This document shows, piece by piece, positions 1 to 32,400 of a stretch of 37,268 nucleotides of DNA. Origin of the DNA: an uncultured Clostridia bacterium (GTDB taxonomy: Bacteria; Bacillota; Clostridia; Oscillospirales; Acutalibacteraceae); assembly GCA_947169745.1 (NCBI GenBank), contig CAMVQZ010000011.1:1-37268 (forward strand), in the 5' to 3' direction. A program made the translations under genes and the position numbers. How positions within the stretch are numbered: position 1 is the stretch's first letter; each line of letters begins with the position of its first letter. The notes beneath the pieces are model-generated. The model had not been told where the DNA came from, made no database searches, and saw only the letters and a program-made list of their open reading frames with translations.

Positions 1-51
1 CAAGCCAGCCACAAACAAACCGCCCCCATAACAATACCTCATTATCTATCG

Positions 52-150
52 CCGCACCACGAGAGCATAGGAACGCACGACAGAGCGAATGGAAGGAGCG
101 ATGACGCGAACATGGGTGCAGCGTCGATGCTGCCGCACTGCTGGTTGTAA
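52..150 (-). repeat. Dispersed repeat family, copy A (partial, reverse orientation)
   Basis: Read on the minus strand, bases 133 to 72 contain GCAGCATCGACGCTGCACC, then TTCGCGTCATCGCTC, CATTCGCTCTGTCGTGCGT. These words recur at about 11578-11640, 16559-16620, 19095-19200 and 28840-28900/29050-29110. The outer limits are uncertain because the window starts here. The short palindrome GCAGC...GCTGC is the most recognisable part. No coding potential is convincing inside it. Confidence 0.75.
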
Positions 151-255
151 TTATTGAGAGAATGTGATATTATGGGCACTGTAGGCTCATATTTGTATTG
201 TTGGATGCATATATATTATTTGTGGGGTCTAAGAAAAATTTCCGGGAGTGATATA

Positions 256-1170
256 ATGAATATTTGTCGTATTGAAAAAAAGGTAAGATCCTCCGACCGT
301 GTGCATATGCTGAATGGACTGATATTTGTTCCTCAGGGAAGGATAAAGGGATATTTCCATATAATACACGGAATGACGGAATATATCGGCAGATATGAGG
401 ATTTTATGAAAGAAATGGCAGGAGAGGGCTACATTGTTTTTGGATATGATAACCTGGGACACGGCTTTACAGTAAACGATGAAAGCGAACGCGGCTTTTT
501 TGCCAGTGAAAACGGATGGAAATATCTTGTTGAAGATGTGGGGATATTTGCAAGAGAAATGAAAAAGCATTTCGGACTGACATTGCCCTATTACCTGATG
601 GGACATAGTATGGGTTCCTTTATCGCAAGACTTGCGGCGGAAAAATTCAATATGCAGAAAAAACTGATTCTTACAGGTACAGGCGGCCCGGAAAATCTTA
701 CAGGCTCTGCAATAGCTGTGCTGAGAAGAGTAAAAAAGGATAAGGGAGAAAAATATGTTTCTGAAAGACTGAGAGATATGATCTTCGGTACATATAATAA
801 AAAATTCGGGGACGATGACCCCTATAACTGGCTCAGCAGTCTGGAAACCGCCAGAAATGAATATTCCTCCGACCCGGTCTGTACATTTTCATTTACGGTC
901 TCTGCAATGGAGGATCTGGTAACCCTCAGCAGGGAAGCTAATTCAAGGCGCTGGTTTTCGTCAAGAGTGTGCAGAAAGCCTGTTCTGATTCTGTCAGGAC
1001 TTGACGACCCGGTGGGAGAATATGGCCACGGAGTAAAAAAAGTACACGATAAGCTTGCGGAAAATGGATGTAATGTCAGATTGATCCTCTACAGGGGCTG
1101 CCGCCATGAGGTGCTTAATGAGAGGTGCAGAAAAAAGGCAATACATGAGATAAAAAGATTCTGCCTCTGA
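256..1170 (+). CDS. Alpha/beta hydrolase, monoacylglycerol lipase-like (Hydrolase_4 / serine aminopeptidase S33 type)
   Basis: A 304-residue cytoplasmic serine hydrolase of the lysophospholipase/monoacylglycerol lipase group, which cleaves acyl esters. The visible motifs are HG near the oxyanion site (IIHGM), a YDNLGHG loop, the nucleophile elbow GHSMGS with Ser118, the acid in LSGLDDP (Asp250 or 251) and the catalytic His284 in GCRHEV. Order and spacing fit the family. I chose ATG 256 because GGGAG lies seven bases upstream; an in-frame ATG at 154 would add 34 residues overlapping the edge of repeat A, with no homology look. There is no signal peptide. It stands alone, between repeat A and the promoter of the next cluster. 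The true substrate cannot be read from sequence. Confidence 0.85.
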   Translation: MNICRIEKKVRSSDRVHMLNGLIFVPQGRIKGYFHIIHGMTEYIGRYEDFMKEMAGEGYIVFGYDNLGHGFTVNDESERGFFASENGWKYLVEDVGIFAREMKKHFGLTLPYYLMGHSMGSFIARLAAEKFNMQKKLILTGTGGPENLTGSAIAVLRRVKKDKGEKYVSERLRDMIFGTYNKKFGDDDPYNWLSSLETARNEYSSDPVCTFSFTVSAMEDLVTLSREANSRRWFSSRVCRKPVLILSGLDDPVGEYGHGVKKVHDKLAENGCNVRLILYRGCRHEVLNERCRKKAIHEIKRFCL

Positions 1171-1309
1171 TCAATAAAGTGTACACTCATATACAATTTT
1201 TTTCATATTAAAATGAATAGACGGAAATTTCATCATAATATACACACTTTTTCTTTTTTTTATATGGTATATTTGGCAATTTTTTACATCTGTCGGAATG
1301 GGAAGAATA
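1171..1309. other. AT-rich intergenic spacer
   Basis: No gene is seen. A 10-bp perfect palindrome AGTGTACACT lies at 1179-1188 just after the hydrolase stop codon. The rest is T-rich and A-rich tracts. No clear factor-independent terminator is visible. Confidence 0.6.
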
Positions 1310-1338
1310 TTGACATTTTCTTACTTATATGATATAAT
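1310..1338 (+). promoter_or_regulatory. Consensus sigma-A promoter of the SipW/TasA-like cluster
   Basis: A perfect -35 TTGACA (1310-1315) and perfect -10 TATAAT (1333-1338) are separated by exactly 17 bases. Transcription would start near 1345, leaving an AT-rich leader of about 120 nt before the first signal peptidase. Both hexamers match consensus, which suggests strong basal transcription or control by a repressor; the leader shows no operator I can name. Confidence 0.85.
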
Positions 1339-1464
1339 TAACACAATAGTAGTAGAAATGGTTAAAAATAGTACGATTGTTTCAATTATACATTTTTTTA
1401 AGAGTTATTAATTCATTTTTGTGTATATATGATTATTAAATATGTTTAAGGAAGTGAATTACTG

Positions 1465-2169
1465 ATGGCGAACAGAAAGGAAGAAAGGTCTTCCGCTGCT
1501 CATAAGATTCTGACGATAACAGGAGCTGTTCTCTGCCTGATACTTATACCGATACTGATCATAAATATTACATTGATTATAAAGAGTTATACAAATAAAG
1601 ACGAGGTCCCCAAGATCGGCGGGATTTGTCCGCTGATAGTCCTGACGGGATCAATGGAGCCGGAGATATCCTCAGGAGATCTGATAATCGTAAATCAGGC
1701 TGACCCGAAGGATATAAAGGAGGGCGACATAATCGCATTTTTTGATCCGGACGGTAACGGAAGCAGCGTTCTGACCCATAGGGTCACTGAGATAATAAAC
1801 GACAACGGAAAGCTTTCCTTCAAAACAAAGGGTGATGCCAATAATGCCGAGGATCGCCTTGCAGTAACAGAGGATAAGCTGGTTGGAATTTACAGATCCA
1901 GGATACCCGGGGCAGGAAATGTTGCAATGTTTATGCAGACAACTCTCGGACTTATCATCTGCGTTGTAATACCGCTGATACTTCTTATCGGCTATGATAT
2001 ACTTCGCCGCAGACGTTATGAGAGGCTGAATAAACAGGATACAGACGCTCTTCTTGCGGAGCTGAATGAACTCAAGGCTCAGAAGGCTTCTCAGGAAAAA
2101 ACGGAGAGCAAGGCTTCCGGAGAGGAAAAACCCTCTGTAAAGGAAGAGGAAAAGCCCTCTGATAAATAA
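1465..2169 (+). CDS. sipW: SipW-like (ER-type) signal peptidase I, first of two
   Basis: A 234-residue membrane serine protease that removes signal peptides, here probably those of the TasA-like proteins downstream. It has an N-terminal transmembrane helix (about 15-40), the catalytic box TGSMEPEISSGD with Ser63, and LTHR with His105 where ordinary bacterial signal peptidases have Lys. A KGDAN box (122-126) follows, then a second helix (about 156-178) and a charged Lys/Glu-rich cytoplasmic tail (about 195-234). The Ser-His pair and two-helix topology are those of SipW and archaeal/ER enzymes. AAGGAAG at 1448-1454 supports ATG 1465. It is the first gene after the promoter at 1310 and is followed by a 185-nt leader and the major substrate candidate. 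Confidence 0.9.
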   Translation: MANRKEERSSAAHKILTITGAVLCLILIPILIINITLIIKSYTNKDEVPKIGGICPLIVLTGSMEPEISSGDLIIVNQADPKDIKEGDIIAFFDPDGNGSSVLTHRVTEIINDNGKLSFKTKGDANNAEDRLAVTEDKLVGIYRSRIPGAGNVAMFMQTTLGLIICVVIPLILLIGYDILRRRRYERLNKQDTDALLAELNELKAQKASQEKTESKASGEEKPSVKEEEKPSDK

Positions 2170-2354
2170 GATATTCTTTTTCCGATTGCCACATCGGGGA
2201 ATGGATATATATCCGGGCACCGGAAAAGACGATGCCGGACATTTCTCTTGGCGAATTTTATAAAAAAGTGGTCTGCAAAGGAGTCAGACTGCAAAACAAT
2301 TTTACTGTTGGCTGTGGGGAAACTCATGGACACTGGAGAAAGGGGTTAATAAAA
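2170..2354 (+). other. Structured leader between signal peptidase and TasA-like gene
   Basis: This 185-nt gap holds several short stem candidates: CCGAT/ATCGG (2182-2197), the palindrome GGATATATATCC (2203-2214), TCCGG-gca-CCGGA (2212-2224) and GTCTG/CAGAC (2271-2289). I recognise no riboswitch class and no good promoter. It may be a processing or translation-control leader for the next gene. The ribosome site for that gene is AGGGG at 2341-2345. Confidence 0.35.
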
Positions 2355-3389
2355 ATGAAGAAAAACGTAACGATGAGAGCTGCCGGATTTCTTCTGGTAG
2401 GCGTAATGCTAACAGCAAGCATTGTCAGCGGCACTTATGCGAAGTATGTTACACAGGACAGCGCCCAGGATACTGCAAGAGTTGCAAAATTCGGAGTAGT
2501 GGCAGCAGTGTCAGGCGACCTCTTTGGTAAGTCATATTCAGCTGCAAGTGGTAATTCAATTCAGGCGTGGTCTGTAAACGGTCCCACCGTTTCAGCATCA
2601 GGAGCTACTGAGGCTGCAGCAGATAAGGTTGTAGCACCCGGCACAAAGAATGGTACAGGTATGACTATTTCTGTAACAGGTACACCTGAGGTTTCAACAT
2701 CACTTGCACTTGTTGATGCAGTAGATGCTTCCGGTAATACTTATGTGAATACCGATATCGAGCTCAAGACCGGCGATTACGGTGTTATGGTTGCATACAA
2801 CGGCACAGTTACAACTGATAATGTTACAAGTTATTATAAGCTTGATAACGGCACTTATATAGCTGCAACAGCTGCTGATCTTGGAACGAATCCTGCTACT
2901 AAGCTCTATCAGTTCAAGGACGCTGCAAGCGTAGCAGCTTCCTATAAGCCTGTTACCTGGAAGGTAGGCGACACAAGCTGCGCAGATGTTGCAGCAGTTA
3001 AGACAGCGCTTGCATTCACCACAACTACAGCTGCTCCCAATACTGATCTCGCAACCGCTTATGGTTCAAAGACCATAACATGGGAGTGGCCCTTCAGCAC
3101 AGGAAATGCCAATGCTGTTACAGGTAATACACCCAATGACGGTCTTGACACTATCCTTGGTGATATGATAGCTGATTCAGGCGACGCTAACTATACTGTT
3201 GTAAAGGCAAACGGTACCGGCTATGATACAGTAAATTACGCTGATGTTAATGCTGCTGCTAATTCTGCAAACACAGTAAAGGTAGCTTACACAGGAGCAA
3301 CAGCACCTACTGTAATGACAGATGCTTCTGTATGTGCAGTACTTACTGTATCCTTCGGCGCAAAGCTGACAGTAACCCAGGTTGACTGA
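2355..3389 (+). CDS. TasA/camelysin-like secreted protein, probable major SipW substrate
   Basis: A 344-residue secreted protein. The N-terminus (KK, hydrophobic 8-24, then SGTYAKYVTQ and ARVAKFGV) has the layout of signal peptides cleaved by SipW-type peptidases, with cutting likely near GTYA/KY. VAPGTKN and ITWEWPF (241-247) followed by LDTILGD are shared with the wall-anchored protein at 3592. The mature part is rich in Ala, Thr, Val and Asn, nearly lacks Cys, and uses preferred codons (GCA, GCT, ACA, GGT) more uniformly than its neighbours, which suggests high expression. By analogy with TasA I infer a fibre or matrix subunit. ATG 2355 is chosen for AGGGG at 2341 and the classic signal peptide; an upstream in-frame ATG at 2232 lies in the leader. 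Confidence 0.75.
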   Translation: MKKNVTMRAAGFLLVGVMLTASIVSGTYAKYVTQDSAQDTARVAKFGVVAAVSGDLFGKSYSAASGNSIQAWSVNGPTVSASGATEAAADKVVAPGTKNGTGMTISVTGTPEVSTSLALVDAVDASGNTYVNTDIELKTGDYGVMVAYNGTVTTDNVTSYYKLDNGTYIAATAADLGTNPATKLYQFKDAASVAASYKPVTWKVGDTSCADVAAVKTALAFTTTTAAPNTDLATAYGSKTITWEWPFSTGNANAVTGNTPNDGLDTILGDMIADSGDANYTVVKANGTGYDTVNYADVNAAANSANTVKVAYTGATAPTVMTDASVCAVLTVSFGAKLTVTQVD

Positions 3390-3591
3390 TGACCTGTCCT
3401 GATCGATAGCGGATCAGACTAATGCTTTTTGAATCTTAATTATATACCGAAGCCGGCCGGCCATATGTGGCGGTGACCGCGCCGGTTCTCGGTGTTTTCG
3501 GCAGTCTGACCCAGAGTTTTTTTGTGGTCCGGCTGCCGAAAGTACCGAAAAAGGAAAATTGAGTATGATAAGAATGAAGGAGGGACAGATA
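3390..3591 (+). other. GC-rich intergenic stem-loops, possible partial terminator or processing site
   Basis: A long stem pairs 3490-3504 with 3533-3547 (13 of 15 positions pair, core TTTCGGCAG/CTGCCGAAA). It encloses a loop with a run of seven T. Upstream lie GGCCGGCC and GCGG-tga-CCGC. No promoter consensus is evident. Such a structure could reduce read-through or protect the upstream mRNA 3' end, making the TasA-like protein more abundant than the products that follow. The ribosome site AAGGAGGG (3577-3584) ends the gap. Confidence 0.45.
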
Positions 3592-4488
3592 ATGGAAAAA
3601 GAAAAAAGAAAGAAAAACCATCTGCCCTCGCTGCTGATAGCCTTTCTTTTGTTTATCCTCGGTCTTATTACCACAGTGGTTCTTTTCAGCAGGATACTTT
3701 ATTTTTCCGGAAGAGAAGTAAAGAATGTTATTCCCCTTGTCGGTACCTCAGGTTCACTTGATAAGAATACCGGCGAGTATCACGAGACCTCCGGTTCTCT
3801 TGAACTGGGGTACAATACGAAAACAGATGAAAACGGAGATAAGGTGTGGGAAAACACCGCACGCGCTGATATTTTCAGATGCTTTTATGACAACGAGCAG
3901 GGGAAAATAACCGTAATAGCAGACGGGGAAGGTGAGGATCGGGTCATAGCCCCCGGCACCTCGAATGACTATAAATTCACGATACAGAATACTACCGCCT
4001 TTCCTCTTGATTATGATATGTATGTTGAGGCTGAGGTGATAGGAACAGAACATGAGATCCCACTCAGGGTATCACTCAGAGCCGATAACAGCGGATATAT
4101 CGCAGGCTCGGAGAACAGCGGAGGTATCAAGGATCTGGACGGCGTCCGTGACAGCTCTGTTCTGGGGGGCGGAAGATGTAATTACTATACCCTGTCCTGG
4201 GATTGGCCGTTTGAGCAGGGAAAGGACGAATATGACACAATGCTGGGTGATCTTTCTGTAAAGGATACCATTACGGTTCGTGTCAGATTCAAGACAATTG
4301 CAAGACTGGATGCCGACCCGGAGGATCCCAGAAAACGGGACGCCGGCGATAAGCCTAAGACCGGGGACGATTCTCCGTATATGTTCCTTTGTGTAATGAT
4401 GTCTGCTGCCCTTGCAGTTGCAGTATTCTTCTTCCTTGTGGGAGGAAAGCGTACAAGGGATGATGAAGAAGATAAGGAGCGTTCCTGA
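3592..4488 (+). CDS. TasA-like protein with sortase-type wall-anchor signal (KPKTGD)
   Basis: A 298-residue exported protein. It has a basic N-terminus, a hydrophobic export segment (about 11-32), an ARADIFRCFYDN stretch, IAPGTSNDYKFTIQNT, SWDWPFEQGKDEYDTMLGD (about 202-220), and a C-terminal KPKTGD motif (254-259) followed by a hydrophobic helix and the tail KRTRDDEEDKERS. That ending is the layout of LPXTG-class anchors, with PKTG in place of LPXTG as is common in Clostridia. I infer it ties the matrix or fibre to peptidoglycan. The start at ATG 3592 is supported by AAGGAGGG seven bases upstream. Its stop overlaps the start of the next peptidase by one base, so the two are translationally linked. 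No sortase gene is in this window. Confidence 0.8.
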   Translation: MEKEKRKKNHLPSLLIAFLLFILGLITTVVLFSRILYFSGREVKNVIPLVGTSGSLDKNTGEYHETSGSLELGYNTKTDENGDKVWENTARADIFRCFYDNEQGKITVIADGEGEDRVIAPGTSNDYKFTIQNTTAFPLDYDMYVEAEVIGTEHEIPLRVSLRADNSGYIAGSENSGGIKDLDGVRDSSVLGGGRCNYYTLSWDWPFEQGKDEYDTMLGDLSVKDTITVRVRFKTIARLDADPEDPRKRDAGDKPKTGDDSPYMFLCVMMSAALAVAVFFFLVGGKRTRDDEEDKERS

Positions 4489-5078
4489 TGATAAAAAAAA
4501 TGACCGCAAAAAGCATTATCCGGATGGTCATGCTCCTTGCGATAAGTATTTTTGCCGGAGGCAGCATATATGCCTGGAATGCAGAGACTCTTGTGGGAAA
4601 TGCGATGCCGATGCCCTTCGGGGTAGGTTTGTCCGTGGTGATGTCCGGAAGTATGGAGCCGGAGCTGAGAGTCAATGATCTGGTGGTTGTCCGTTCCCAG
4701 GACAGCTACGAAAAGGGCGATATAGTAGTGTATCAGGACGGCGGAAGTCTTGTCATTCACCGGATAATCGAAATCAGGGATGACAAGGTCATCACAAAGG
4801 GAGACGCAAACGACGTTCCCGACAGACCGGTGCCTGTCCGGGATATCAAGGGCAGATACACAGGGCGGATACCTTTTGTAGGAGTTATACTTCTCTTTTT
4901 CAAATCACCCGCAGGATTTGTGTTAATGCTTTTGGCAGCAGTTGTGTTGTTTGAATATCCGTATATAAAAGAGAGAAAAAATGCCGCAAAGAGGCAGGAA
5001 GAAATAAAAGAACAGATAAGACAGTTACGAAATGAGGCTGAAGAAAAGCATCCGTCAGAAAGCGATGCTGAAAACTAA
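4488..5078 (+). CDS. sipW: SipW-like (ER-type) signal peptidase I, second copy
   Basis: A 196-residue membrane signal peptidase. It has an N-terminal helix (about 10-29), the box MSGSMEPEL with Ser55, VIHRI with His91 in place of the usual Lys, a KGDAN box (104-108), a second hydrophobic helix (about 128-155), and a charged, probably coiled, cytoplasmic tail (about 158-196). It differs clearly from the peptidase at 1465 outside the catalytic boxes, so the two are not a recent duplication. Its start codon overlaps the stop of the anchored TasA-like gene (TGATG), with AAGGAG at 4474-4479. Two peptidases in one cluster suggest different substrates or a redundant processing step. Confidence 0.88.
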   Translation: MIKKMTAKSIIRMVMLLAISIFAGGSIYAWNAETLVGNAMPMPFGVGLSVVMSGSMEPELRVNDLVVVRSQDSYEKGDIVVYQDGGSLVIHRIIEIRDDKVITKGDANDVPDRPVPVRDIKGRYTGRIPFVGVILLFFKSPAGFVLMLLAAVVLFEYPYIKERKNAAKRQEEIKEQIRQLRNEAEEKHPSESDAEN

Positions 5079-5106
5079 TTAATTTATTCAGAAAGGGTGT
5101 GGTTTT

Positions 5107-5730
5107 GTGAGACTGATTAATTCTGTTTTATCAAAGCTGCACCTTTCTGCAGGTGAGATAGTTTTTCGCATTTTCAGTGTAATGCTTTTACTTACAATGA
5201 TAAGCTTCTGGCTTGTCTGCGGAATGCTTGCCCGATTTACTTCCTCAGGCGATAAGCAGGGGGGCGCAAGAGTGGCTGCTGCGGGACAGGCAGATGTGTT
5301 TGAATACGAAGCATACTTTGATGATACCACTTATTCATATCATCTCCGTGAAGATACTGTAGTTTCTAAGAACACATATTCTGTAGTGGTTCCCGGAATG
5401 GAGATAGAGAAGGATCCTTTTATCCGGCTTTACGGTAATAATGAGGTATCCTATTATCTGTATTTAGAGGTAAAGGCTTCACATCCTGACAAGGTCAGAT
5501 ACGAGATGTCCTCTGTCTGGTCAGTGACAAACGATATCGCTGCCGCCCACGGGGGAACGGTCTATAAATTCCAGACGGTGATAAATCCGGGTGAGAAAAG
5601 AGACATCCACGAAATTCTCAAAGACGATATAGTCAGGATAAGAGACGATCTTAAGGATAAGACGCAGCCGACAGCCAATAGTGATCCTTTTACGCTGGAT
5701 TTTTATGCATATATGATACAGATGGATTGA
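5107..5730 (+). CDS. Minor SipW-type secreted/membrane-tethered protein
   Basis: A 207-residue protein with a hydrophobic segment (about 18-42) followed by LARFTSSGDKQGGARVAAAG. This resembles the AKY...ARVA junction of the TasA-like protein at 2355, so it is probably trimmed by one of the adjacent peptidases. A further shared element is VVVPGMEIEKDPFIRLYGNNEVSYYLYLEV in shortened form: a VxPG turn followed by a beta-rich stretch, as in TasA-like domains. The start is GTG 5107, preceded by GAAAGGGTG; a downstream ATG at 5180 would cut into the hydrophobic segment. It lies 28 bases after the second peptidase. The function is inferred as an accessory subunit or assembly factor. Confidence 0.65.
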   Translation: MRLINSVLSKLHLSAGEIVFRIFSVMLLLTMISFWLVCGMLARFTSSGDKQGGARVAAAGQADVFEYEAYFDDTTYSYHLREDTVVSKNTYSVVVPGMEIEKDPFIRLYGNNEVSYYLYLEVKASHPDKVRYEMSSVWSVTNDIAAAHGGTVYKFQTVINPGEKRDIHEILKDDIVRIRDDLKDKTQPTANSDPFTLDFYAYMIQMD

Positions 5731-5767
5731 TGCCAGGATCTGATAAAGAAGGAAGGAGGTCATCGTG

Positions 5768-6391
5768 ATGACAAAAGCAAAGCATTACAGAAAAAGCCGC
5801 ATTAGTTTACGTTTCAGGATAATTATTGCGATGGCCGTGCTTCTGATGATAGCAGCTTCATCCTCGATGCTCTTTGCAAAATATATACACAGCTCCGGTG
5901 AGGTAGAGAACCGTTTTACTCCATCTACCTATGACAGTCCTATCGTGACTGATAATATGACAAAGGATGTCACCGGATATTATTATAAGCACGATCTTTC
6001 CGTAACCCCTGCCGCCGGAACAGATTATCCTGTTTATGTCCGGATAGCGCTGATACCCACCTGGAAGGACAGCAGCGGAAATATTCTCGGTCAGCAGCCG
6101 GTAAGGGACAAGGACTATTCATTCACATATAACGGAACCGACTGGCTTTTATATACCGACGGCTATTATTACTGCAAAACTCCTGTGACAGGAGGAAACG
6201 CCACACCAGAGCTGATAACGCATTATCGTTTTCTGAAGCAGCTCAGGGACGCTCCGAAGAGCGGTTATGATCTTCACGTTGAAGTTGTTGCCGAGACCAT
6301 TCAGGCAGTAGGCGCAAAATACATAGATGTCCATAACAGAAAGGCGGCAGTCCTTGATGCATGGGGCGTCAATCCGTTAACATATAACTGA
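5768..6391 (+). CDS. Minor SipW-type secreted protein, TasA-like accessory subunit
   Basis: A 207-residue protein. The basic leader (MTKAKHYRKSRISLRFR) and hydrophobic core (about 18-36) are followed by LFAKYIHSSGEVENRF, matching the SipW-cognate junction. The C-terminal third contains VAETIQAVGAKYIDVHNRKAAVLDAWGV, here split: ETIQAVG, then AVLDAWGV, which is the usual ending of small camelysin/TasA-like subunits. ATG 5768 sits eight bases after AAGGAGG (5753-5759); the GTG just before it (5765) is a less likely start. It is co-directional with the genes on both sides (37 and 36 bases away). Its likely role is an accessory component of the same surface structure. Confidence 0.7.
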   Translation: MTKAKHYRKSRISLRFRIIIAMAVLLMIAASSSMLFAKYIHSSGEVENRFTPSTYDSPIVTDNMTKDVTGYYYKHDLSVTPAAGTDYPVYVRIALIPTWKDSSGNILGQQPVRDKDYSFTYNGTDWLLYTDGYYYCKTPVTGGNATPELITHYRFLKQLRDAPKSGYDLHVEVVAETIQAVGAKYIDVHNRKAAVLDAWGVNPLTYN

Positions 6392-6427
6392 TATTACTCA
6401 CAGATCTTTTGAAAGGAGGAAGCTGAT

Positions 6428-9400
6428 ATGACAAAAAAGAAAGACCGTTCAGGATATGTAAAAGCTGCATATATGTTCATAGCTGCTTTCCTGCTTTTGC
6501 TTGTCAGCGTTGTAAGTCTCAGGGTAAGCGCAGACAGAGATGTCACGACCATAACATTAAAGATAAATTATTATTACTATGATACAAATGCCCCGGGAAA
6601 TAAGGGATATTCCCCTTATCCGTCATTTATCGCAAATATGCCTGTTGGCTCAAACCCGGTAACTGAGAAGTGTCCTTCGATCCCCGGTTTTTCTGCAAGA
6701 GATGAGAGCGGAAACAACTGTGAATCTGTGACCCTTTACTTCGATAGTGCGGAGCTTGATGGTCACGAGGTCAATGTTTTTTATTATCCGTCAGATGTAT
6801 CCTATGCTATCCGTCTGATGAAGCAGAGACTTGGCTCAAATGATTATGACCTTGCAAATGTTATCCATAGCCAGGGAGCAACAGGCTCCGAGCCGGTGGA
6901 ATTCAATTCAAGCTACAGATTCCCGGATCATTATCAGATAGAGGCTCTCCGGGGACATTCTCTTGATGATGTCTATACCGGATTTACACTGATGTACCAT
7001 CAGCCGGAGGTCATAGCCGCCGATGGTTCCACAGTTTTCGAGTGCTACTATGACAGAGATTATTATCAGATATCCTTTGAGCTGGGCGAGGGAGGTTCAG
7101 GCGTCAGCCCCATCTATGCCCCATATGAATCTGATCTTGTATTCCACAATCCCACAAGAGCAGGCTTCCGTTTCAAGGGCTGGGCATATAAAAACGATGA
7201 TGAGTCTCATATCTATACCACAGATGAAGTTATTTCCGAAGAGAATCTTCCCAAAAAAATAACACAGGATGAGACCTTTGTTGCCGTGTGGGAGCAGCTT
7301 GAGCCTATCAATTACCATATTGTTTACAGAAAAGCTGATCTTTCCGACGGCAGCGGAGAGACCACCTATAGCTATTGGGGCAGCCGGTCTCTGACGATAC
7401 AGCCCGGCGATTCCCAGAATCTGTCCCTTGATGATATCATAGATACATACAAGGACGATTACCAGAATGTAGACGATCTCAATGAGAATACCGGTCTTTA
7501 CGAGCTGGAGGATTTCCCGTATTTCAGCTTTGATGAGGATGTCACCAGAAGCCTGAATTCCTCCTCAATAGAGGTCAACGGCGACGGCTCCACAGTCGTT
7601 ACGCTTTATTATGCAAGAAGAGAGTACGAGCTTAAATTTGTTTATGCAAGAGCCAGTGCGCCAACTCAGGAATATGTAAGCGAAACAACCATTGTACCGT
7701 ATAAAGAAGATTCTCCGGCTGACCCTTATAAGACTTACTATATCATTCTCAATAAGGGTACATCCGAAAAGGCTATGACTTCCGAGAATGATTCATATAA
7801 TAATGCACATGGCTTGAAGCTCTCAGCTCTGTCCGGAACTGATGTAAAATGGAAGTTTACAGCAGTGAAGGACGATCAGGGAAATTATAAGGATAACGTA
7901 TATTATGTTTCCTGTGAGGCAGATGGTTCCACAAAATATCTTCATATTGATTTTAAAACTGACGGTAATCCTCCGGCATTGGGAGATAATCAGAATACCT
8001 ATCTGAGTGATGACCCCCAGGAGATAAATGTTTATCTGAAAAATGGCGTATGGGTTTTCAAGAATAACGCCCACAACTGGTATCTGAATAATAAATCAAA
8101 TCAAGACAAAATCGCTTCCACATACTATGATGATAGTGTAACCTGGAAGCTTTACGAGAAAAAGGAAAAGCAGACTACCTACGGAAGCATTCAGATTACT
8201 AATTCCACAAGAAACGGAATTGACCCCGGTAAACCGAGCAATAACTGGTGGGGCGTAATTATAAATGAGCTTCCGGAGGTAACCATCCCCGACGATCCCA
8301 GAATTTCCCTTAAGACAGAAACAAAGGTATTCAGTAATGTGACCTACGTTTATTACTATATCAGTCTTAAAGCGGAATACGGTGCTGATATCGGGTCTGT
8401 ATGGCCGGTTTCGCCTGCAGGAGATGTTTACAGAATAGGTGATAATGCTGTTTATAAATTTGGTTCCTGGGGCACACAGAACGGAAGTCTCTATCGCCAG
8501 AACCACAGCGGAGACAACAGGTCAAATATAATCGGTCCATATCCTACAATGTCCAAGGAAATGACAATGATAGGACATGAGGATGAAGAAAATGGTATGA
8601 CCCTGTATGCATGGTGGGGCGATTACACAGCCAATATTACTCCCCACAGATATGATATTTACCTTGAGACTATTGAGGATGGACCCGGAGGAGTAACACA
8701 ATACGAGCTGTTTGATCCCGGTGACGACAGATATAATTTCCAGTGCGCTCATAATAATAATACCTATACCTATCCGTTTATGTTTAAGGGCTATGAGGTA
8801 TTGCCTGCGGATTCCGGAAATATTTTATCAAAGAAATACAAGGACAGTAACGGGAATTACTACACTCCCTTCCACTACAAACGCAAGCGCAGTACTCTTA
8901 CCTTCAGAAACTATAACACAGATATCAAGACTGTATCCTCTGTGAAATACGAAACACCTCTTTCAGGACATATCCCGGAGGGTACACCGCAGATTCCCGA
9001 CGGACTTGACCCGGAGCATTACACCTTTGAGGGCTGGTATACCTCTGATCTTTTCCATCCCTCTGAAAGGGTATATCCTGAGGATGTTACAGACGAGCAT
9101 GGTACAGTCATTCACAAGGCAACGACCATGCCGGACAGCAATCTGATTGTGTATGCATACTGGAAGCCAAAGACATATACCGTCAGATATTATAATGACG
9201 AAAGTGACTACCAGAATAATAACCAGTTTGTGGAGAAGTCCGATCACGACTACGGACAGTATATTCCCTCATCCGAGCATACGGAGGTAGGAAGTCTGCT
9301 TGATCCTCCGGAATATACACTTTCCGATGGTTCCCAGGCTCAGGCGACCCCGGTAGGATGGTATTATTATGATTCAGAAGGTGTTCTCCATGCCTTCAAT

Positions 9401-11272
9401 CCCGATACCATGGCTGTTTCAGGTAATATTGATCTCTTTATGAGATGGTCTACAACAGTTCCTGCAAATTTCCGGGTACACTATTATCTTGAGGGCACTT
9501 CTCAGAAGCTTGCCAGTGATACTACCGGATATTCCTTTGTAGGACTGACAAGAACCTTCAAGGCAAAGGTGGATAAGGAGCTGGATCCTGACTACCGATC
9601 AAATTACTTCCCGTTTTTCAGCAGTACATCCATTCTGATGAAGGGCAATGAAGCTGAAAATGAAAGGACCTTCTATTATGCACACCGGGATCGTGTTCCC
9701 TATGAAGTCCGTTATATCAAGCTGAATGATGACGGTACTCCCGGATCATCCCTCCATCCGCCAAAGCAGGTGCTTAATAATAATAAAACTATTGTCACGG
9801 AGAAATATCTTCCCATTGCGAATTATGTTCCGAATTCCTATTATATCTCTCGTATCGTCACAATATCTGATGATGATGTGGAGGATCAGATCGCAGAAAG
9901 AAATATAATCACCTTCTATTATACCTATGATGATAAAAATATACCCTATCACATCAAATATATGCTGGAGGATGAGGAAACAGGTTCTGAGGATCTGCAA
10001 ATAGGCGATACCACATATACCTTCAAGCAGGCAAACTATATTGACGGTATCGGCGACAGAAACACATCTATTACAGCCTCGGTCACTGAATACCCCGGCT
10101 ATGAGTATGTTGGCTACGGAGAGATAGACTACCACGGTGTCATCGGTGAGACAGAAGAGATGGCTCACACCGGCTTCAATGTGCACGATCCCTCTCAGCC
10201 GATTCCTGAAGCTATTTCTATCGGTCTTTTTGAAAACTACGGCGACACGCAGATAAGTAAGGAGATACACCTGCATTATATCAAGAAGAGTTATCCGGTG
10301 AAGGTGACATATTCTGTATTTACTGAGAATAACGATAAGATCAAGGAGTGGTATGATAATATCACAAGCCTGGGTCTTGGCCTTACTCCGGACACCTCAA
10401 CCGCAGTGACTATCGGCTCAGATACAGTGTATACCACACTTTATAAGATGCTGCCGGCAGAGAAATTCGGTTCAACTGTTGAGCAGACAGCTCCGGTTTT
10501 AACCGATTTCCGTTTTCTTGGCAATGAAAAACAGACGCTTGTCGTTACTGATGACACAAGTGATCTGACAAAGAATAAGATAAACTTTGTATATACCGAG
10601 CTTGAACAGGTAATGTTCTACTATGACGCGGTAATGCCTGAGAAAAACGGTCCGGATACCTATATTCCTCCCGGAGATGATCCCAAGCTCCTGAATCTTA
10701 ACCAGGAAAGCATAGCGGTAGGAGAGAGACCTACAAGACAGATCGTGGCAAAGACAAATCAGCCCGGATACCAGTTTATAGGATGGTTCACAGACAGAGC
10801 CTGCACTCAGCCTGTACCGGCAAGTTACCTGGTAAACGGGGAGTCAAATATCCTTCTGCCCCAGAACGGAGCAAATTCCGATCAGCATTTCTATGCGAGA
10901 TATGATTATCTGAGAGGCGACCTGACTCTGACAACCAGGGGCTGTCTCACAGACTCTGTCAATTCTGAGCAAAGCTTTATATATCTTATAAAGGGTAAGG
11001 ACGCCGGATATAACGACTGGATCAGTATGAAGGTAGTTGTCAGAGGAAACGACAGCCTCACAATAAAGGATCTGCCCATCGGAAACTATGATGTCAAAGA
11101 GACAGACTGGTCGTGGCGTTATGATAATGACAAGACAGACAGTAAGGAAGCAGTTGTTATCTCCGAGAATAACACTTCCACAGTGACCTTTACCCATAGT
11201 ATGAGGGAAACAGCATGGCTTGACGGAAACGGTTATAAGGATAATACCTATGCCGATCCCCCGGAGCCGTAA
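6428..11272 (+). CDS. Giant secreted surface protein with InlB B-repeat-like, MucBP-like and SpaA-like modules
   Basis: A 1614-residue exported protein, the last gene of the cluster. Signal peptide 1-35 (basic start, hydrophobic 14-31, cleavage near VSA/DRD). InlB/Listeria-Bacteroides-type repeats at about 212-290 (NPTRAGFRFKGWAY...FVAVWE), 820-917 (YTFEGWYTS...VYAYWKP) and 1394-1490 (PGYQFIGWFTDRAC). MucBP-like stretches occupy about 1015-1300 (VHYYLEGT, YEVRYIKL, YHIKYMLED). The region 435-577 (YYIILNKGTS, VKWKFTAV, KYLHID, VTWKLYE) resembles a beta-trefoil lectin domain. The end (about 1496-1600: FIYLIKG, LPIGNYDVKETDWSWRY, VTFTH, WLDGNGY) is a SpaA/Cna-B-like fold. There is no LPXTG motif or membrane tail, so retention must come from partners. 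AAAGGAGG precedes ATG 6428. It is probably an adhesin or matrix component. Confidence 0.8.
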   Translation: MTKKKDRSGYVKAAYMFIAAFLLLLVSVVSLRVSADRDVTTITLKINYYYYDTNAPGNKGYSPYPSFIANMPVGSNPVTEKCPSIPGFSARDESGNNCESVTLYFDSAELDGHEVNVFYYPSDVSYAIRLMKQRLGSNDYDLANVIHSQGATGSEPVEFNSSYRFPDHYQIEALRGHSLDDVYTGFTLMYHQPEVIAADGSTVFECYYDRDYYQISFELGEGGSGVSPIYAPYESDLVFHNPTRAGFRFKGWAYKNDDESHIYTTDEVISEENLPKKITQDETFVAVWEQLEPINYHIVYRKADLSDGSGETTYSYWGSRSLTIQPGDSQNLSLDDIIDTYKDDYQNVDDLNENTGLYELEDFPYFSFDEDVTRSLNSSSIEVNGDGSTVVTLYYARREYELKFVYARASAPTQEYVSETTIVPYKEDSPADPYKTYYIILNKGTSEKAMTSENDSYNNAHGLKLSALSGTDVKWKFTAVKDDQGNYKDNVYYVSCEADGSTKYLHIDFKTDGNPPALGDNQNTYLSDDPQEINVYLKNGVWVFKNNAHNWYLNNKSNQDKIASTYYDDSVTWKLYEKKEKQTTYGSIQITNSTRNGIDPGKPSNNWWGVIINELPEVTIPDDPRISLKTETKVFSNVTYVYYYISLKAEYGADIGSVWPVSPAGDVYRIGDNAVYKFGSWGTQNGSLYRQNHSGDNRSNIIGPYPTMSKEMTMIGHEDEENGMTLYAWWGDYTANITPHRYDIYLETIEDGPGGVTQYELFDPGDDRYNFQCAHNNNTYTYPFMFKGYEVLPADSGNILSKKYKDSNGNYYTPFHYKRKRSTLTFRNYNTDIKTVSSVKYETPLSGHIPEGTPQIPDGLDPEHYTFEGWYTSDLFHPSERVYPEDVTDEHGTVIHKATTMPDSNLIVYAYWKPKTYTVRYYNDESDYQNNNQFVEKSDHDYGQYIPSSEHTEVGSLLDPPEYTLSDGSQAQATPVGWYYYDSEGVLHAFNPDTMAVSGNIDLFMRWSTTVPANFRVHYYLEGTSQKLASDTTGYSFVGLTRTFKAKVDKELDPDYRSNYFPFFSSTSILMKGNEAENERTFYYAHRDRVPYEVRYIKLNDDGTPGSSLHPPKQVLNNNKTIVTEKYLPIANYVPNSYYISRIVTISDDDVEDQIAERNIITFYYTYDDKNIPYHIKYMLEDEETGSEDLQIGDTTYTFKQANYIDGIGDRNTSITASVTEYPGYEYVGYGEIDYHGVIGETEEMAHTGFNVHDPSQPIPEAISIGLFENYGDTQISKEIHLHYIKKSYPVKVTYSVFTENNDKIKEWYDNITSLGLGLTPDTSTAVTIGSDTVYTTLYKMLPAEKFGSTVEQTAPVLTDFRFLGNEKQTLVVTDDTSDLTKNKINFVYTELEQVMFYYDAVMPEKNGPDTYIPPGDDPKLLNLNQESIAVGERPTRQIVAKTNQPGYQFIGWFTDRACTQPVPASYLVNGESNILLPQNGANSDQHFYARYDYLRGDLTLTTRGCLTDSVNSEQSFIYLIKGKDAGYNDWISMKVVVRGNDSLTIKDLPIGNYDVKETDWSWRYDNDKTDSKEAVVISENNTSTVTFTHSMRETAWLDGNGYKDNTYADPPEP

Positions 11273-11331
11273 GTGATATTGTTTAAAGACTGAATACAGA
11301 TAAATAACAGACATCTGTTATATAGCAAACG

Positions 11332-11359
11332 GAGGTCAGGGATAAGGTCCCCTGACCTC
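11332..11359 (+). terminator. Hairpin at the end of the SipW/TasA-like cluster
   Basis: The 10-bp perfect stem GAGGTCAGGG (11332-11341) / CCCTGACCTC (11350-11359) has an 8-base loop. The following sequence is T-rich but not a clean run (TTCTGATATTCTG), so termination efficiency is uncertain. Confidence 0.6.
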
Positions 11360-11438
11360 TTCTGATATTCTGTAAAGCTCCAGGCTATGTATAAACCTCT
11401 GCTTCGGTGAATGGAAAATAAAGAATGAATAATGAATA

Positions 11439-11782
11439 CTGGTTGTCGCTGCGCTCCTTTTTAGTAAGCTTGTGCGTGTTGCAGCTTCTCATAAAGCCAG
11501 GTGTTCATAATCAGAGGAGTGAAAAGCCGTAAGTCAAAGCAAACCAGCCGCAAAAAGCAGCCCGAAAGGGGTGCGGCGGGCAGCGTGACACTGCACCCGA
11601 TCCGCGCTGTTCGCTCATTCCATTCGTTCCGCCGTGCGTGTGGATACTTTTGTTCCGCGGCGGAAAGAAGATCTGTATCCGACCAGTAAAATATTGTCAG
11701 ACGCGTCACAAGAGTAAAGGTACGCATAACCGAGCGAGTTAAGGCGAGGGATTACGCGAATTGTTCAGTGCGAGCACGCTGG
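11439..11782 (-). repeat. Dispersed repeat family, copy B (long, reverse orientation)
   Basis: Read on the minus strand it begins GCGTGCTCGCACTGA, continues with the TTCGCG...CTCGCT type words, carries an internal inverted unit (plus-strand GCAGCGTGACACTGCACCC at 11579 onward). It then shows GCCGCACCCCTTTCGGGC, TGCTTTTTGCGGCTGG, GGCTTTTCACTC and ends AAGCTTACTAAAAAGGAGCG. The same order is seen at 16550-16820 and 28826-29172. Its left end abuts the remnant of an asparagine synthetase gene. Open frames inside it are by-products of the repeat. Confidence 0.8.
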
Positions 11783-11794
11783 TTTTCTTTTGTA

Positions 11795-12238
11795 TCCTTT
11801 AGTGATAGAAAGGACAGAATGTCAATGTACAGCGGTCTTGAGGTGAGAGTACCCTTCTGCGATCCCAGGATCATTGACCTTGCTTTCAATATGCCCTGGA
11901 GAATCAAGACTGTAGGGGGAAGGGAAAAGGGTATCCTGAGAGCCGCCTTCCGGGGACTTCTTCCGGAGAGTATAACGGACAGAAAGAAAAGCCCCTATCC
12001 CAAAACCTATGATCCGGTTTATTTCAGGCTCTGCGCATCAGGAGTTCTCCGGCTTCTTGAGGATAATACCTCAGTTATCAGCGCCTTGTTTGATAAAGAT
12101 GCAGTTCTGGATATTATTGAATCGCCGGATAAAATATCGTCTCCCTGGTACGGTCAGCTTATGCGCGCGCCTCAGATACTTGCCTATATGATACAGGCAG
12201 ACCACTGGTTCAGAACCTTTGATATAAAAATTGTATAA
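11795..12238 (+). pseudogene. asnB: Asparagine synthetase B remnant (C-terminal fragment only)
   Basis: From FSDRKDRMSMYSGLEV to the stop, the frame matches the last quarter of glutamine-dependent asparagine synthetases. Visible family signatures are DRKDRMSM, LEVRVPFCDPRI, GREKGILR, RKKSPYPKTYDP and SPWYGQLMRAPQ. The N-terminal glutaminase half with Cys2 and the ATP-binding SGGxDS loop are missing. Upstream in the same frame is only repeat-B sequence (an ATG at 11768 would fuse about 9 repeat-encoded residues). About 150 residues remain of an expected 500-620. The surviving part has no internal stop or frameshift, so the loss may be recent. It cannot make asparagine. Whether the fragment is expressed from the repeat is unknown. 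Confidence 0.85.
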
Positions 12239-12241
12239 AAG

Positions 12242-12296
12242 CAACACCGCACAAAGAGTACCTGGCGTCCTGGCGCCACATCTTTGTACGGTGTTG
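12242..12296. terminator. Long hairpin between convergent genes, likely bidirectional terminator (member of a small repeat family)
   Basis: CAACACCGCACAAAGA (12242-12257) pairs with TCTTTGTACGGTGTTG (12281-12296) with one mismatch. An inner TGGCG...CGCCA stem follows. The hairpin is flanked by T-rich sequence on the right and A-rich sequence on the left, fitting termination from both sides. A related but decayed copy lies at 17818-17861. Confidence 0.75.
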
Positions 12297-12302
12297 TCTT
12301 TA

Positions 12303-12830
12303 TTATGAGCCCATTTTTATTCCTGCAAAGATCAGCGCTCCGGCGCCAACAATACAGACGACAGATGCCATAAGCATTGGTATGGAAATAGGCGCTGACT
12401 TCTCGCCTTCAATATAAAACTCCGTGGGCTTGTTCGGGTTGTAAAATATATTGATGGAAGAGCCGACCTCATAATTGGAGGGCTTTCTGGAATTCATTTT
12501 CAGAAAATAATCCTTTTCTCCCACCGAGAAGTCCACACATTTGCTCACGCCCTTTTTACTTCTGTTGTTAGCAACATAAGCCCGTGTTTTTTCAGTACAT
12601 CTTTTCCGCATTGCCTCGTCACTGCCTTTTCTGGATAAATTGATGAAAAACAATACACATCCCACAATAATAAGAAAGAAGGCTGCAGCAAACACACCTT
12701 GCTGAGGGGTGAGGTTAAGAGTTGACCCGTGTCTGCTACGATGACTGCGGAATCTGCGCCGGACCCTGAGATTCTCAATAAACGATGCAACAGAGCCGGA
12801 ATAAACGCCAAGTATACTAAGACCAAACAT
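12303..12830 (-). CDS. DUF3592-like membrane protein
   Basis: A 175-residue protein. A basic N-terminal stretch with RRRFRSHRSRH (about 24-33) is followed by a membrane helix (about 47-65). An outer beta-rich domain (about 75-140) reads CTEKTRAYV, VDFSVGEKDYFLKM, YEVGSSINIFYNPNKPTEFYIEG, and a second helix (about 147-170) closes the protein. The YNPxxPxEFY element between two helices is the layout of the DUF3592 family, whose function is unknown. AAAGGAA lies a few bases before ATG 12830. It is the last gene of the minus-strand run from 16537, 21 bases after the CLC gene, and ends at the hairpin terminator. Confidence 0.7.
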   Translation of the reverse strand: MFGLSILGVYSGSVASFIENLRVRRRFRSHRSRHGSTLNLTPQQGVFAAAFFLIIVGCVLFFINLSRKGSDEAMRKRCTEKTRAYVANNRSKKGVSKCVDFSVGEKDYFLKMNSRKPSNYEVGSSINIFYNPNKPTEFYIEGEKSAPISIPMLMASVVCIVGAGALIFAGIKMGS

Positions 12831-29172: not shown

Positions 29173-29435
29173 ATTACCCATTTGGTTCTGATACGCCTTT
29201 CCGGTTCTGAGTGGGGAGGGTGTTTTTTTAAGCTGAATTTACACTTAAAGCATTGATTACTGTCATAAAGATGTGATTGTGAAAACAAGACCGTATCCCG
29301 CATATAATGCCCAAAAAAATAGTATATCAGCCGCTGTTATAATTCTTTATTGTAAATAAAAAAATATGATTTCGTATTAAAATGTAAGTGAATGGAGTTA
29401 TTATCAACAAATTTTCAAGAAAGAGGGTAAATAAT
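29173..29435 (+). other. Intergenic leader of the pullulanase gene
   Basis: An AT-rich stretch with a CCAAAT/ATTTGG short stem near 29172-29190 and a perfect TATAAT at 29303-29308. The best -35 (TTGTGA at 29277) would be 20 bases away, so the promoter is doubtful. No operator recognised. The ribosome site is GAGGG at 29423-29427. Confidence 0.4.
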
Positions 29436-32400
29436 ATGGCTAAAATGAGAAAACGACTAAAGCGATCTCTTTGTTTTCTGATGTCGGCACTTATGTGCAG
29501 CTCAGTATTTGCTGTTGCGGCGAGCGTACCTGCGGCTGCAGTGAGCTACAGCGAGATGTCAGCTCTGGATCAGTATGCCTACAGCGGAAATGACCTTGGT
29601 GCTACATATTCAAAGAATTCCACCACCTTCAAGGTCTGGGCTCCTACCGCCTCCAGGGTACAGCTCAAGCGCTATTATACCGGAAGCGATTCAGAAGCCG
29701 GTGCAGGAGTAATAGAGATCAAGGATATGACCAGCGGCAACCAGGGCGTATGGTCAGCAACTGTTTCCGGCGATATTGCAGGAACATATTATACATATCT
29801 TGTAACAGTCAGCGGCACCACAAGGGAAACTGTTGATATCTATGCCCGTTCCACCGGTGTCAACGGCAAAAGGGGAATGGTTCTGGATCTTGATTCCACT
29901 GACCCCAGCGGCTGGGAAAACGATAAGCGTGTGAAATGCGAGAACCAGACAGATTCCGTCATCTGGGAGGCTCATGTCAGAGACTTTTCCATATCCTCAG
30001 ATTCCGGAATGACAAATAAGGGTAAATACCTGGCATTCACAGAGACCGGGACAACAGTAAATAATGACGGAGTGCATCCCACAGGTATTGACTATCTTGC
30101 AGATCTTGGCGTTACCCATGTTCATCTTCTTCCTGTGTATGACTATGCAAGCGTGGATGAGACAAAGCTTTCCACTGACCAGTTCAACTGGGGCTATGAT
30201 CCCATGAACTATAATACTCCGGAGGGCTCCTATTCCACTGATCCCTATAACGGCAGCGTCCGTGTAAACGAATTCAAGAGAATGGTACAGTCGTTGCATA
30301 ACAAGGGCATAGGCGTTGTTATGGACGTTGTATACAACCACACCTATTCCGGCGGTTCAGGCTATAATGACTGGTTCGATTATACCGTTCCCGGATATTA
30401 TTACCGTCAGGATTCCGAAGGCAATTATTCCAATGGCTCCGGCTGCGGCAACGAGACCGCCAGCGACAGGGCGATGTATAAGAAGTTTATGATCGATTCT
30501 CTTACCTACTGGGCAACAGAGTATCATCTGGACGGCTTCCGCTTCGACCTTATGGGTATTCACGATACGGACACAATGAATGATATCCGGGCTGCCCTTG
30601 ATAGGATAGACCCTGATATACTGATATACGGCGAGCCGTGGACAGCAGATGCCACTCCCTGTCCCAAGCCTACAGCTGTTCAGGGTAATATGGGGCTTGT
30701 ATCCTCAGAGATAGCAGCATTCAATGATAAGGTAAGAGACGCCATAAAGGGAAGCTGCTTCAATGCGGCAGACTGGGGCTTTATCCAGGGCGGCGGCTTT
30801 GAAGAGGATCTCAAGACAGGTATCCAGGCAAACACCTCAGTCGCCAGCTATAATAAATGGTCAAAGCAGCCCTCGCAGACAGTGACCTATACCTCTGCGC
30901 ACGATAACTTTACTCTGTATGACAAGCTTGTCTATTCCGTAAAGGGTGAAAATGCAGATTATGATACGAGATACGAAGATCTTGTGGCAATGAATAAGCT
31001 TGCCGCCGGAATCATTCTGACCTCCCAGGGTATGTCCTTCTTCCAGGCAGGCGAGGAATTTGCCAGAACAAAACACGGCGATCACAACAGCTATAGTTCT
31101 CCCACATCTGTAAATCAGCTGAGATGGAACGACAGCGTCAGATATTCCGATCTGGTGAGCTATTATAAGGGTCTTATAGAGATAAGGAAGGCATATGAGC
31201 CCTTCCGGGATCCTACAAACGATAGTAACTCCACAATATACTTTGCATGGGAAAATATACCTGATAAGGTAGTAGCCTATACAATGTACAATAAGAACTA
31301 TACCGGCAAGGAATGGAATTTTGCAGCAGTGCTCCACAATGCAAATTCCTATGCCACAAACGTCAATATCAGAACATTTGATACAAAGACACTTCCCACC
31401 CAGTGGGTAAAGGTCGCAGACGGCACCAGAGCCGGAACAGAGTCTCTGGGAACAGTAACAGGCTCAACTGTTTCCGTGCCTGCTCGTTCCACAGTTATAC
31501 TCATCGACAAGACCAGCTTTGATAATACTGATCTGACAAAGAAATGCACAGTCAAGGTGGATCATGTCATCAGCTCTACCGGAAAGCTCTATAAGTCAGA
31601 GACCCTTACCGGAGAGGCAGGGCAGACCTATACCACCTCGCCCCTGAGCAGTCTTATTTCCGACGGCTATAAAGTCACATCTACCTCCGGAAATACAACA
31701 GGTACCTTCAGCGAAGCCGGCGCACAGGTCACCTATTACTACGACCTGGATACAACGAAATACGGATCTGTAACAGTCAGATATCTGGATACGGACGGAG
31801 CCTCCATTGCGGATGATGAAATATATACCGGTCTTATCGGTTCATCCTATAGCTTTACCGCAAAGAGCATCCGGGGCTATCTTACTCCCGATGAGGTCAA
31901 GACAGGCACATATACCGCCGCGCCTCAGACTGTTTCATTTGAATATGCAGTTGATGAAAGCTCAGGCCTCAAGGTTCATTACTATAACAGCAACAGCTGG
32001 TCGAAGGTAGGAATGTATGTCTATACAAAATCCGGAAATACGGCTACCGAATATACCGGTAACTGGCCCGGAACACTAATGACGGCTGACGGCTCCGGCT
32101 GGTACAGCGGCGATATCCCGGATGTTAACAGCGCATTGTTTATCGCAAATAACTTTGTCACGACATACGGCGAGCAGGATCCCACAGGATATAACACTTC
32201 CGGATACAGTGTTTCCGGTGAGGTCTGGATCAAAAACGGCGTGGTCTATCCCACAGGAAAGGTAGTAGTGACCTACAAGACCACAAGCGGTACAGTCCTT
32301 TCAAAGGAGACTTTGAAGGGTATGGCAGACGGAACAAATGCCTACAGCACCAGTGCAAAGAGCTTTTCTGGATATACTCTGAAAACAACGCCTTCAAACG

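Follow-up and report, generated by a model that had tools for sequence, protein, structure and literature searches.

The stretch of DNA analysed here, hereafter the window, is the whole 37,268-nucleotide contig CAMVQZ010000011.1 (C11) of an uncultured Clostridia bacterium whose 2.53 Mb genome is distributed over 177 contigs. It carries a block of seven genes, designated A to G, encoding two signal peptidases of the endoplasmic reticulum (ER) type, four small proteins (B, C, E and F) and one giant modular protein, and downstream of G lies the final quarter of asnB, which encodes asparagine synthase. The features recognised in this region were as follows.

1310..1338, plus strand: extended sigma-70-type promoter, TTGACA-17-TATAAT with TG, a 12-of-12 match
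1465..2169, plus strand: A, ER/archaeal-type signal peptidase, SipW-like (TIGR02228 match)
2355..3389, plus strand: B, probable major fibre subunit of 344 amino acids (AKY cleavage site, ARVAKFG segment and W-x-W..DTILG motif; conserved in a 20-row alignment)
3445..3549, plus strand: two-hairpin RNA with a GUGGC loop in the B-C gap (fold z -6.0, covariation, model match)
3592..4488, plus strand: C, B-related subunit with a sortase-type C-terminal signal and without a SipW-type site (hhalign, P-x-T-G)
4488..5078, plus strand: D, second ER/archaeal-type signal peptidase (TIGR02228 match)
5107..5730, plus strand: E, minor SipW-type substrate (hhalign with B and F; A42 and Y44 conserved in 23 rows)
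5768..6391, plus strand: F, minor SipW-type substrate, distantly BsaA-like (BsaA model below cut-off)
6428..11272, plus strand: G, secreted modular protein of 1614 amino acids, probable tip adhesin (InlB-type repeats, linked relatives)
11332..11359, no strand assigned: hairpin 3' of G, a possible transcript end, called on the minus strand only and with a weak T-run on the operon strand
11781..11805, no strand assigned: right end of the asnB-interrupting element, an inverted repeat with a GA core (repeat comparison)
11804..12238, plus strand: asnB 3' part, from residue 472 (PF00733, 108.1 bits, profile positions 224-353 of 354)

The promoter at 1310-1338 was the sole 12-of-12 site among 38 promoter-like sites in positions 1-12500 (24.9 expected), and all seven reading frames followed on the same strand, in agreement with the original prediction of a single consensus promoter heading seven co-directional genes; B probably starts at 2355 rather than 2232. 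The two ER-type signal peptidases proposed at the same time were likewise substantiated, A (108.7 bits) and D (89.5 bits) both exceeding the cut-off of 51.85 for NCBIfam TIGR02228; both fell below the cut-off of 190 for the Bacillus SipW equivalog NF046067 (112.3 and 80.0 bits, respectively). Three more ER-type peptidases above the TIGR02228 cut-off were encoded elsewhere in the same genome. A second SipW-type cluster on contig C40 (L130, 1501-11501) encoded a long protein that the limit of the stretch cuts off, together with three SipW-type substrates, two ER-type peptidases, a 772-amino-acid protein and a protein ending in a QTGE sorting-like tail.

A SipW-type cleavage site was present in B, E and F and absent from C, so that the proposal of four small SipW-type substrates held for the first three, including E and F as minor substrates, and failed for C. 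These cleavage sites resemble the kind reported for TasA. Profile comparison with hhalign joined the four proteins in a chain (B-C, 1.6e-18; B-E, 1.5e-15; E-F, 1.3e-9), and predicted single-chain models of B and F were rich in beta-strands. An N-terminal segment common to B and E, and absent from C and F, occupies the position that the donor strand has in TasA. The curated TasA/CalY families of Pfam and NCBIfam were unmatched by B, C, E and F of the window, as they were by 20 B, 23 E and 21 C rows (NCBIfam) and by 23 E rows (Pfam); for B, C and F the Pfam runs covered the window's own proteins. For lack of any such match, B, C and E were rejected as ordinary TasA homologues. On the BsaA model TIGR04090, F scored 17.4 bits, below the cut-off of 60, and at E ≤ 0.1 this model recognised 17 of 26 F rows (best 6.5e-10), two of 23 E rows and no B or C row. 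Searches of solved structures by sequence gave none for B and five, at chance level, for F.

The C-terminus of C comprised PKTGDD followed by a hydrophobic stretch and a charged tail, bearing out the sorting-type PKTG signal originally ascribed to it. The P, T and G of P-x-T-G were invariant in all 21 C rows, a stricter pattern matching 18 of them, and the LPXTG model TIGR01167 matched eight of the 21 at E ≤ 0.1; among the other subunits the sorting-signal pattern occurred in one of 20 B rows (a chance string), none of 23 E rows and none of 26 F rows. C also keeps an N-terminal hydrophobic segment. Sortase matches were found in 10 of 10 genomes tested, the 13 in the window's genome all being on other contigs. 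Because C alone has the sorting signal and the block has no pilin sortase, a sortase-made polymer is unlikely. In smaller SipW-type clusters of relatives (L024, 10259-11050; L026, 3485-3865) a protein with a SipW-like start bears a LysM domain, which is perhaps another means of fixing a fibre to the wall.

The giant protein G had been described as InlB/MucBP/SpaA-like; its Listeria-Bacteroides (InlB-type) repeats were confirmed (PF09479, 40.7 bits, cut-off 27), while the SpaA model scored below its cut-off (19.5 bits versus 23.1) and none of the matches listed at E ≤ 1 was to MucBP. No sorting signal or anchor was found in G. As C lacks a SipW-type site, G a sorting signal and the block a sortase of its own, and as the genome contains additional ER-type peptidases and at least one similar cluster, the block is neither strictly self-contained, as had been claimed, nor unique.

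With C as the query, matches were obtained in 14 of 60 relative genomes, 13 of these being among the 37 of the genus, and a C profile matched 13 of 297 genomes of the order, in 10 of 145 genera. All seven genes occurred in the window's order in loci L015-L018 at 35-84% identity, and the last five, up to the contig end, in L019. Scanning species genomes with a G profile yielded 41 loci, of which 31 (L063-L093) were tallied and ten matching G weakly (L094-L103) were left out. The tallied loci were all metagenome-assembled genome (MAG) or uncultured records (Ruminococcus, Oscillospiraceae, Clostridia and others), the source, where one is named, being mostly the ruminant gut; RUG names we take to denote rumen bins. 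Many loci are truncated by contig ends, and all close relatives are genome bins. Where at least 5.2 kb was available upstream of G, A-B-C-D followed by E/F/G in line was found at 15 of 19 loci, the exceptions being L069, L092 and the pair L076 and L085, which have A, several E/F-like genes, G, F and a C-like gene. By pattern count F lay 5' of G in 14 of 31 loci and 3' of it in 15, with both placements in L076 and L085. Best-segment identity of G across these 15 loci was 24-70%, and linkage kept at such divergence is strong evidence that the block is a conserved functional unit. The genes in neighbouring genomes were linked rather than scattered.

The gap between B and C contained a GTGGC loop in all 21 giant-bearing loci, window included, for which both genes were in hand, the stems varying between species and the loop remaining constant; among clusters without G, CGTGGA was present in L024-L026 and no such loop in L020-L023. 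Seventeen of the 21 stretches were folded, and each surpassed all 200 of its shuffles in stability (z -4.1 to -10.1), the whole-fold values being -6.0 for the window, -7.3 for L063 and -10.1 for L064. Across eight aligned copies, 17 of 29 pairs had changed on both sides (shuffled mean 8.5), none of 500 shuffles reached any of five covariation measures, and sliding the partner by 1-3 columns abolished the signal; a second alignment, too poor for pair counts, was excluded. A model built from the eight copies matched the window (E 1.8e-15, as a training member) and, with default filters, found the B-C gap of the held-out locus L081 (E 2.6e-5 in 838 kb), which belongs to another family. With filters off, the gap ranked first, on the operon strand, in seven of 12 further held-out loci (L071, L079, L084, L086, L087, L088 and L090), and with strict filters five of the 60 relative genomes were matched, always at the B-C gap.

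A known RNA family was rejected as the identity of this structure, no Rfam family reaching its gathering score in the window; far below that score were four microRNA models in 3390-3600, and one small RNA and one microRNA model in L068 and L077. Rejected also was an intrinsic terminator after B: a hairpin followed by at least five T in eight bases occurred in five of 20 gaps (L064, L071, L079, L087 and L090) and was never the GTGGC hairpin, the sequence after hairpin II of the window being A-rich. As a T-run is not the rule after B, processing of the B message or protection of its 3' end would be the more natural role. The motif ACCGAA occurs both 5' of hairpin I and 3' of hairpin II, and either copy could pair with the TTCGGT between them, so that two folds may compete.

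In the window the block lies at the right end of an element inserted in asnB. The truncated asnB downstream of G was clarified by L015 (genome G019), in which the asnB 5' part, the seven block genes, a large serine recombinase gene and the asnB 3' part follow in that order, the gene being interrupted at the same point. Recombinases related to this one at ≥50% identity occurred in eight of the 37 genus genomes; in each of these genomes one asnB half or both ended at that codon, both doing so in six. Among the remaining 29, an open asnB frame of at least 612 amino acids was found in 22 (two with one TAG inside), and asnB was short, cut or not found in seven. The recombinase adjoined the asnB 3' part in G003, G012, G013, G019, G028 and G033, and the cargo differed between elements (the fibre block, an ATP-binding cassette (ABC) transporter, a YkuD protein and others), the asnB halves remaining intact. 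Members of the family were located as follows.

Window, 11781-12238: asnB element family
L048, 1-1512: asnB element family
L049, 3714-5210: asnB element family
L015, L032 and L050-L057: asnB element family

Each element is bounded by inverted repeats centred on GA, and by eye the two ends of one element vary in concert. In the window's genome only two sites match the end repeat exactly, 11783-11800 of the window and 92-109 of contig C41, beside the asnB 5' part; four further matches each carry one mismatch. The recombinase gene of this genome is on contig C101 beside a YkuD gene, which also adjoins the recombinase in G028 (genes with a similar C-terminus were found in G012 and G033), and we infer that C101 belongs between C41 and the window. 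The breaks between contigs are probably due to a repeat with a copy at 11480-11780; 65 matches to it occur across the genome, many of them where contigs end, and, by eye, similar sequence also stands at the starts of the window and of C101.

Synonymous substitution (dS) was saturated for most asnB pairs, rendering the ratio of nonsynonymous to synonymous substitution (dN/dS) unusable for them. The two usable interrupted pairs (5' part of G006-G013, 0.046/1.057; 3' part of G028-G012, 0.079/1.487) indicated strong constraint on the halves, like that on the intact pair G001-G020 (0.030/0.806 and 0.028/1.186). The stage IV sporulation gene yqfD lies two genes upstream of asnB in G000 (the window's genome) and G019. 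Insertion at one site, retention of both gene halves and ends formed by symmetric repeats, the marks of gin- and skin-type elements, were all found, and constraint on the halves together with the nearby yqfD gives the element its resemblance to gin-type intervening elements. For a developmental excision that would restore asnB, the low dN/dS of the interrupted halves in two pairs is at most an indirect pointer. In PMC5595907, the gin element in gerE of B. cereus is similarly a non-phage element with a serine recombinase and a symmetric repeat around a central dinucleotide, inserted at a sporulation-linked site in a gene that keeps both halves; here, by contrast, the target is asnB, the cargo is a surface operon, excision is presumed, and the recombinase of the window's genome is on another contig. 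The block is not bound to the asnB site, since in G007 it lies away from a whole asnB; in G033 the element is on one contig and the block on another. A condensation-domain gene with an AMP-binding-like neighbour lies beside the fibre block in G007 (L016, 2-2684), and a similar pair stands directly behind the asnB 5' part in G013 (L054, 1012-4217).

In some relatives, SipW-type clusters are probably switched by promoter inversion. L024, L025 and L076 each combine a tyrosine recombinase gene with 20-21-bp inverted repeats (ACATAATNNNNATTATGT) that enclose a TTGACA...TATAAT promoter, pointing away from the cluster in all three; L027 has ACATAATNNNNATTATGT-type repeats without such a promoter, and L024 and L025 are clusters without G.

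L024, 14765-15063: probable invertible-promoter stretch
L025, 14018-14307: probable invertible-promoter stretch
L027, 7036-7375: inverted repeats without such a promoter
L076, 4687-4991: probable invertible-promoter stretch

Similar repeats occur in L134, L137, L139 and L142; together, these recombinase genes and repeats indicate probable invertible promoters beside SipW-type clusters as well as other genes. A phase-variable promoter was rejected for the window itself, there being no inverted repeats in 1100-1500 and no copy of the relatives' repeat near the promoter. Elsewhere in the window, 29388-33872 is a further very long reading frame of 1494 amino acids.

Taken with the linkage of the genes, the ER-type peptidases, the cleavage sites, the homology chain, the segment shared by B and E, the P-x-T-G signal, the sortases in every genome tested and the RNA are consistent with a TasA/BsaA-like surface fibre seeded on C as a wall-anchored base and bearing G as an adhesin, a reading that we consider probable, if only slightly so. 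A and D would remove the signal peptides of B, E and F by cleavage at mostly A-K/R-aromatic sites, of a type poorly cut by ordinary signal peptidases, thereby freeing the N-terminal segment of B and E. As in TasA, this segment would then occupy the open beta-sandwich of the following subunit, and such donor-strand filling would cause B to polymerise. C, being a B body with neither donor segment nor cleavage site but with a sorting signal, would serve as an acceptor-only base fixed to the wall by a sortase encoded elsewhere, with E and F as minor adaptors and G as a giant adhesin at the tip. The B-C RNA may adjust the amount of B relative to the other subunits, through processing or protection of the message upstream of it.

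Gram-positive sortase-assembled pili share the plan of a wall-anchored base, minor subunits and a tip adhesin, and the block differs from them in lacking a pilin sortase and in having the sorting signal on C alone. As described in PMC7395162, the sipW-bsaABCRSD operon of Clostridium perfringens also begins with an ER-type peptidase, followed by a polymer-forming protein and further secreted proteins, its transcript being broken after bsaA by a predicted terminator; according to the same paper BsaA lacks an LPXTG motif, most of its polymer is extracellular and the neighbouring sortase is unneeded. The block is alike in gene order, in a presumed transcript break after the major subunit gene and in its distantly BsaA-like F, and unlike in having two peptidases rather than one, a sorting signal on the B-related C, a giant protein, and a conserved two-hairpin RNA where that operon has a terminator. 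C's conserved sorting signal is therefore the main difference. With the B. subtilis TasA/TapA/SipW fibre, as described in PMC9674648, the block shares putative dedicated SipW-type processing, probable beta-sandwich subunits and a conserved segment at the donor-strand place; unlike that fibre, it gives no sequence-family match and adds a sorting-signal subunit and a giant protein, strand exchange being proposed here. The abstract of PMC13082335 presents Bacillus cereus TasA/CalY/CapP filaments as several related subunits with an assembly-governing helper, in which respect they are similar; it describes them as sortase-independent and names no giant protein. The block probably works like TasA/BsaA fibres yet fails their sequence-family tests.

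Several observations weigh against a wall-attached fibre. The outcome that would have spoken against the original proposal, unrelated folds for the four small proteins, did not arise, given the chain B-C, B-E and E-F and the beta-rich models of B and F, but direct profile comparisons of C-E, C-F and B-F were weak, and structure searches gave no decisive TasA match and none that stood out. No family model recognised B, the C body or E as TasA or BsaA. The C tail scored just below the TIGR01167 cut-off (14.9 versus 15.9 bits), a sortase gene is missing from the block, and the B frame of L016 in G007 contains one in-frame stop. L069 has E-F-G and none of A-D in the upstream 10 kb, and L092 a G-like protein without the block. 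Concerning the RNA, the model with filters off ranked the B-C gap third in L082, preferred the opposite strand in L091 (right strand second), listed only the opposite strand in L075, placed a partial right-strand match third behind the opposite strand in L089 (read in reverse), and did not list the gap in L093; under strict filters it missed G054, the genome of L081. Hairpin I alone was equalled by many of 300 shuffles (window 69, L063 57, L064 111, L071 25), so that the case for the window, L063 and L064 rests on the whole fold and on comparison, and the choice of hairpin arms for best pairing biased the permutation test towards structure.

Three other readings were weighed. B might polymerise and leave the cell as a loose matrix fibre, as in C. 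perfringens, while C stays in the membrane as an assembly factor, its TGD tail acting as membrane anchor rather than as sortase substrate. That the best-studied anaerobe system, according to PMC7395162, releases its polymer and needs no sortase would fit this, as would the lack of a sortase gene in the block and the N-terminal hydrophobic segment of C; the invariance of P-x-T-G in 21 C rows despite variable surroundings argues otherwise, and we regard it as unlikely. A reading without any fibre is rather improbable; it would have C, E and F keep G on the cell surface in a display complex attached to the wall, with B as an abundant coat protein. G is indeed the largest product, polymerisation is only predicted, and L069 has E, F and G without B in the upstream 10 kb; however, B and E share a segment at the donor-strand place, and the presence of an RNA of its own after B suggests that B and the other products are required in different amounts. 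The position of the block in an element within asnB near yqfD, in the window's genome and G019, could also point to a sporulation-stage surface structure, but the housekeeping type of the leading promoter and the arrangements in G007 and G033 described above make this very improbable. Returning to the wall-attached fibre, a bolder version would see in it a new Gram-positive appendage, a strand-exchange fibre with a sortase-fixed acceptor-only base, a giant tip adhesin and a subunit ratio set by a new structured RNA, carried in some rumen bacteria on an element that interrupts a sporulation-linked asnB and can leave it precisely, so that the fibre genes and asparagine synthase are alternatives; this we put forward tentatively, as doubtful on present evidence. 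Among the matches listed for open-licence papers on SipW or TasA with LPXTG, sortase or Ruminococcus, none described this block, and no paper was found there on SipW with rumen or SipW-dependent with Ruminococcus.

If true, the wall-attached fibre would unite SipW-type processing and self-assembly with sortase anchoring, strategies usually treated apart, in uncultured gut bacteria about whose modes of attachment little is known. The B-C RNA would offer a testable handle on how subunit ratios are set in such operons, and with the asnB site one could test, beyond the classic spore formers, how elements that carry cargo interrupt genes.

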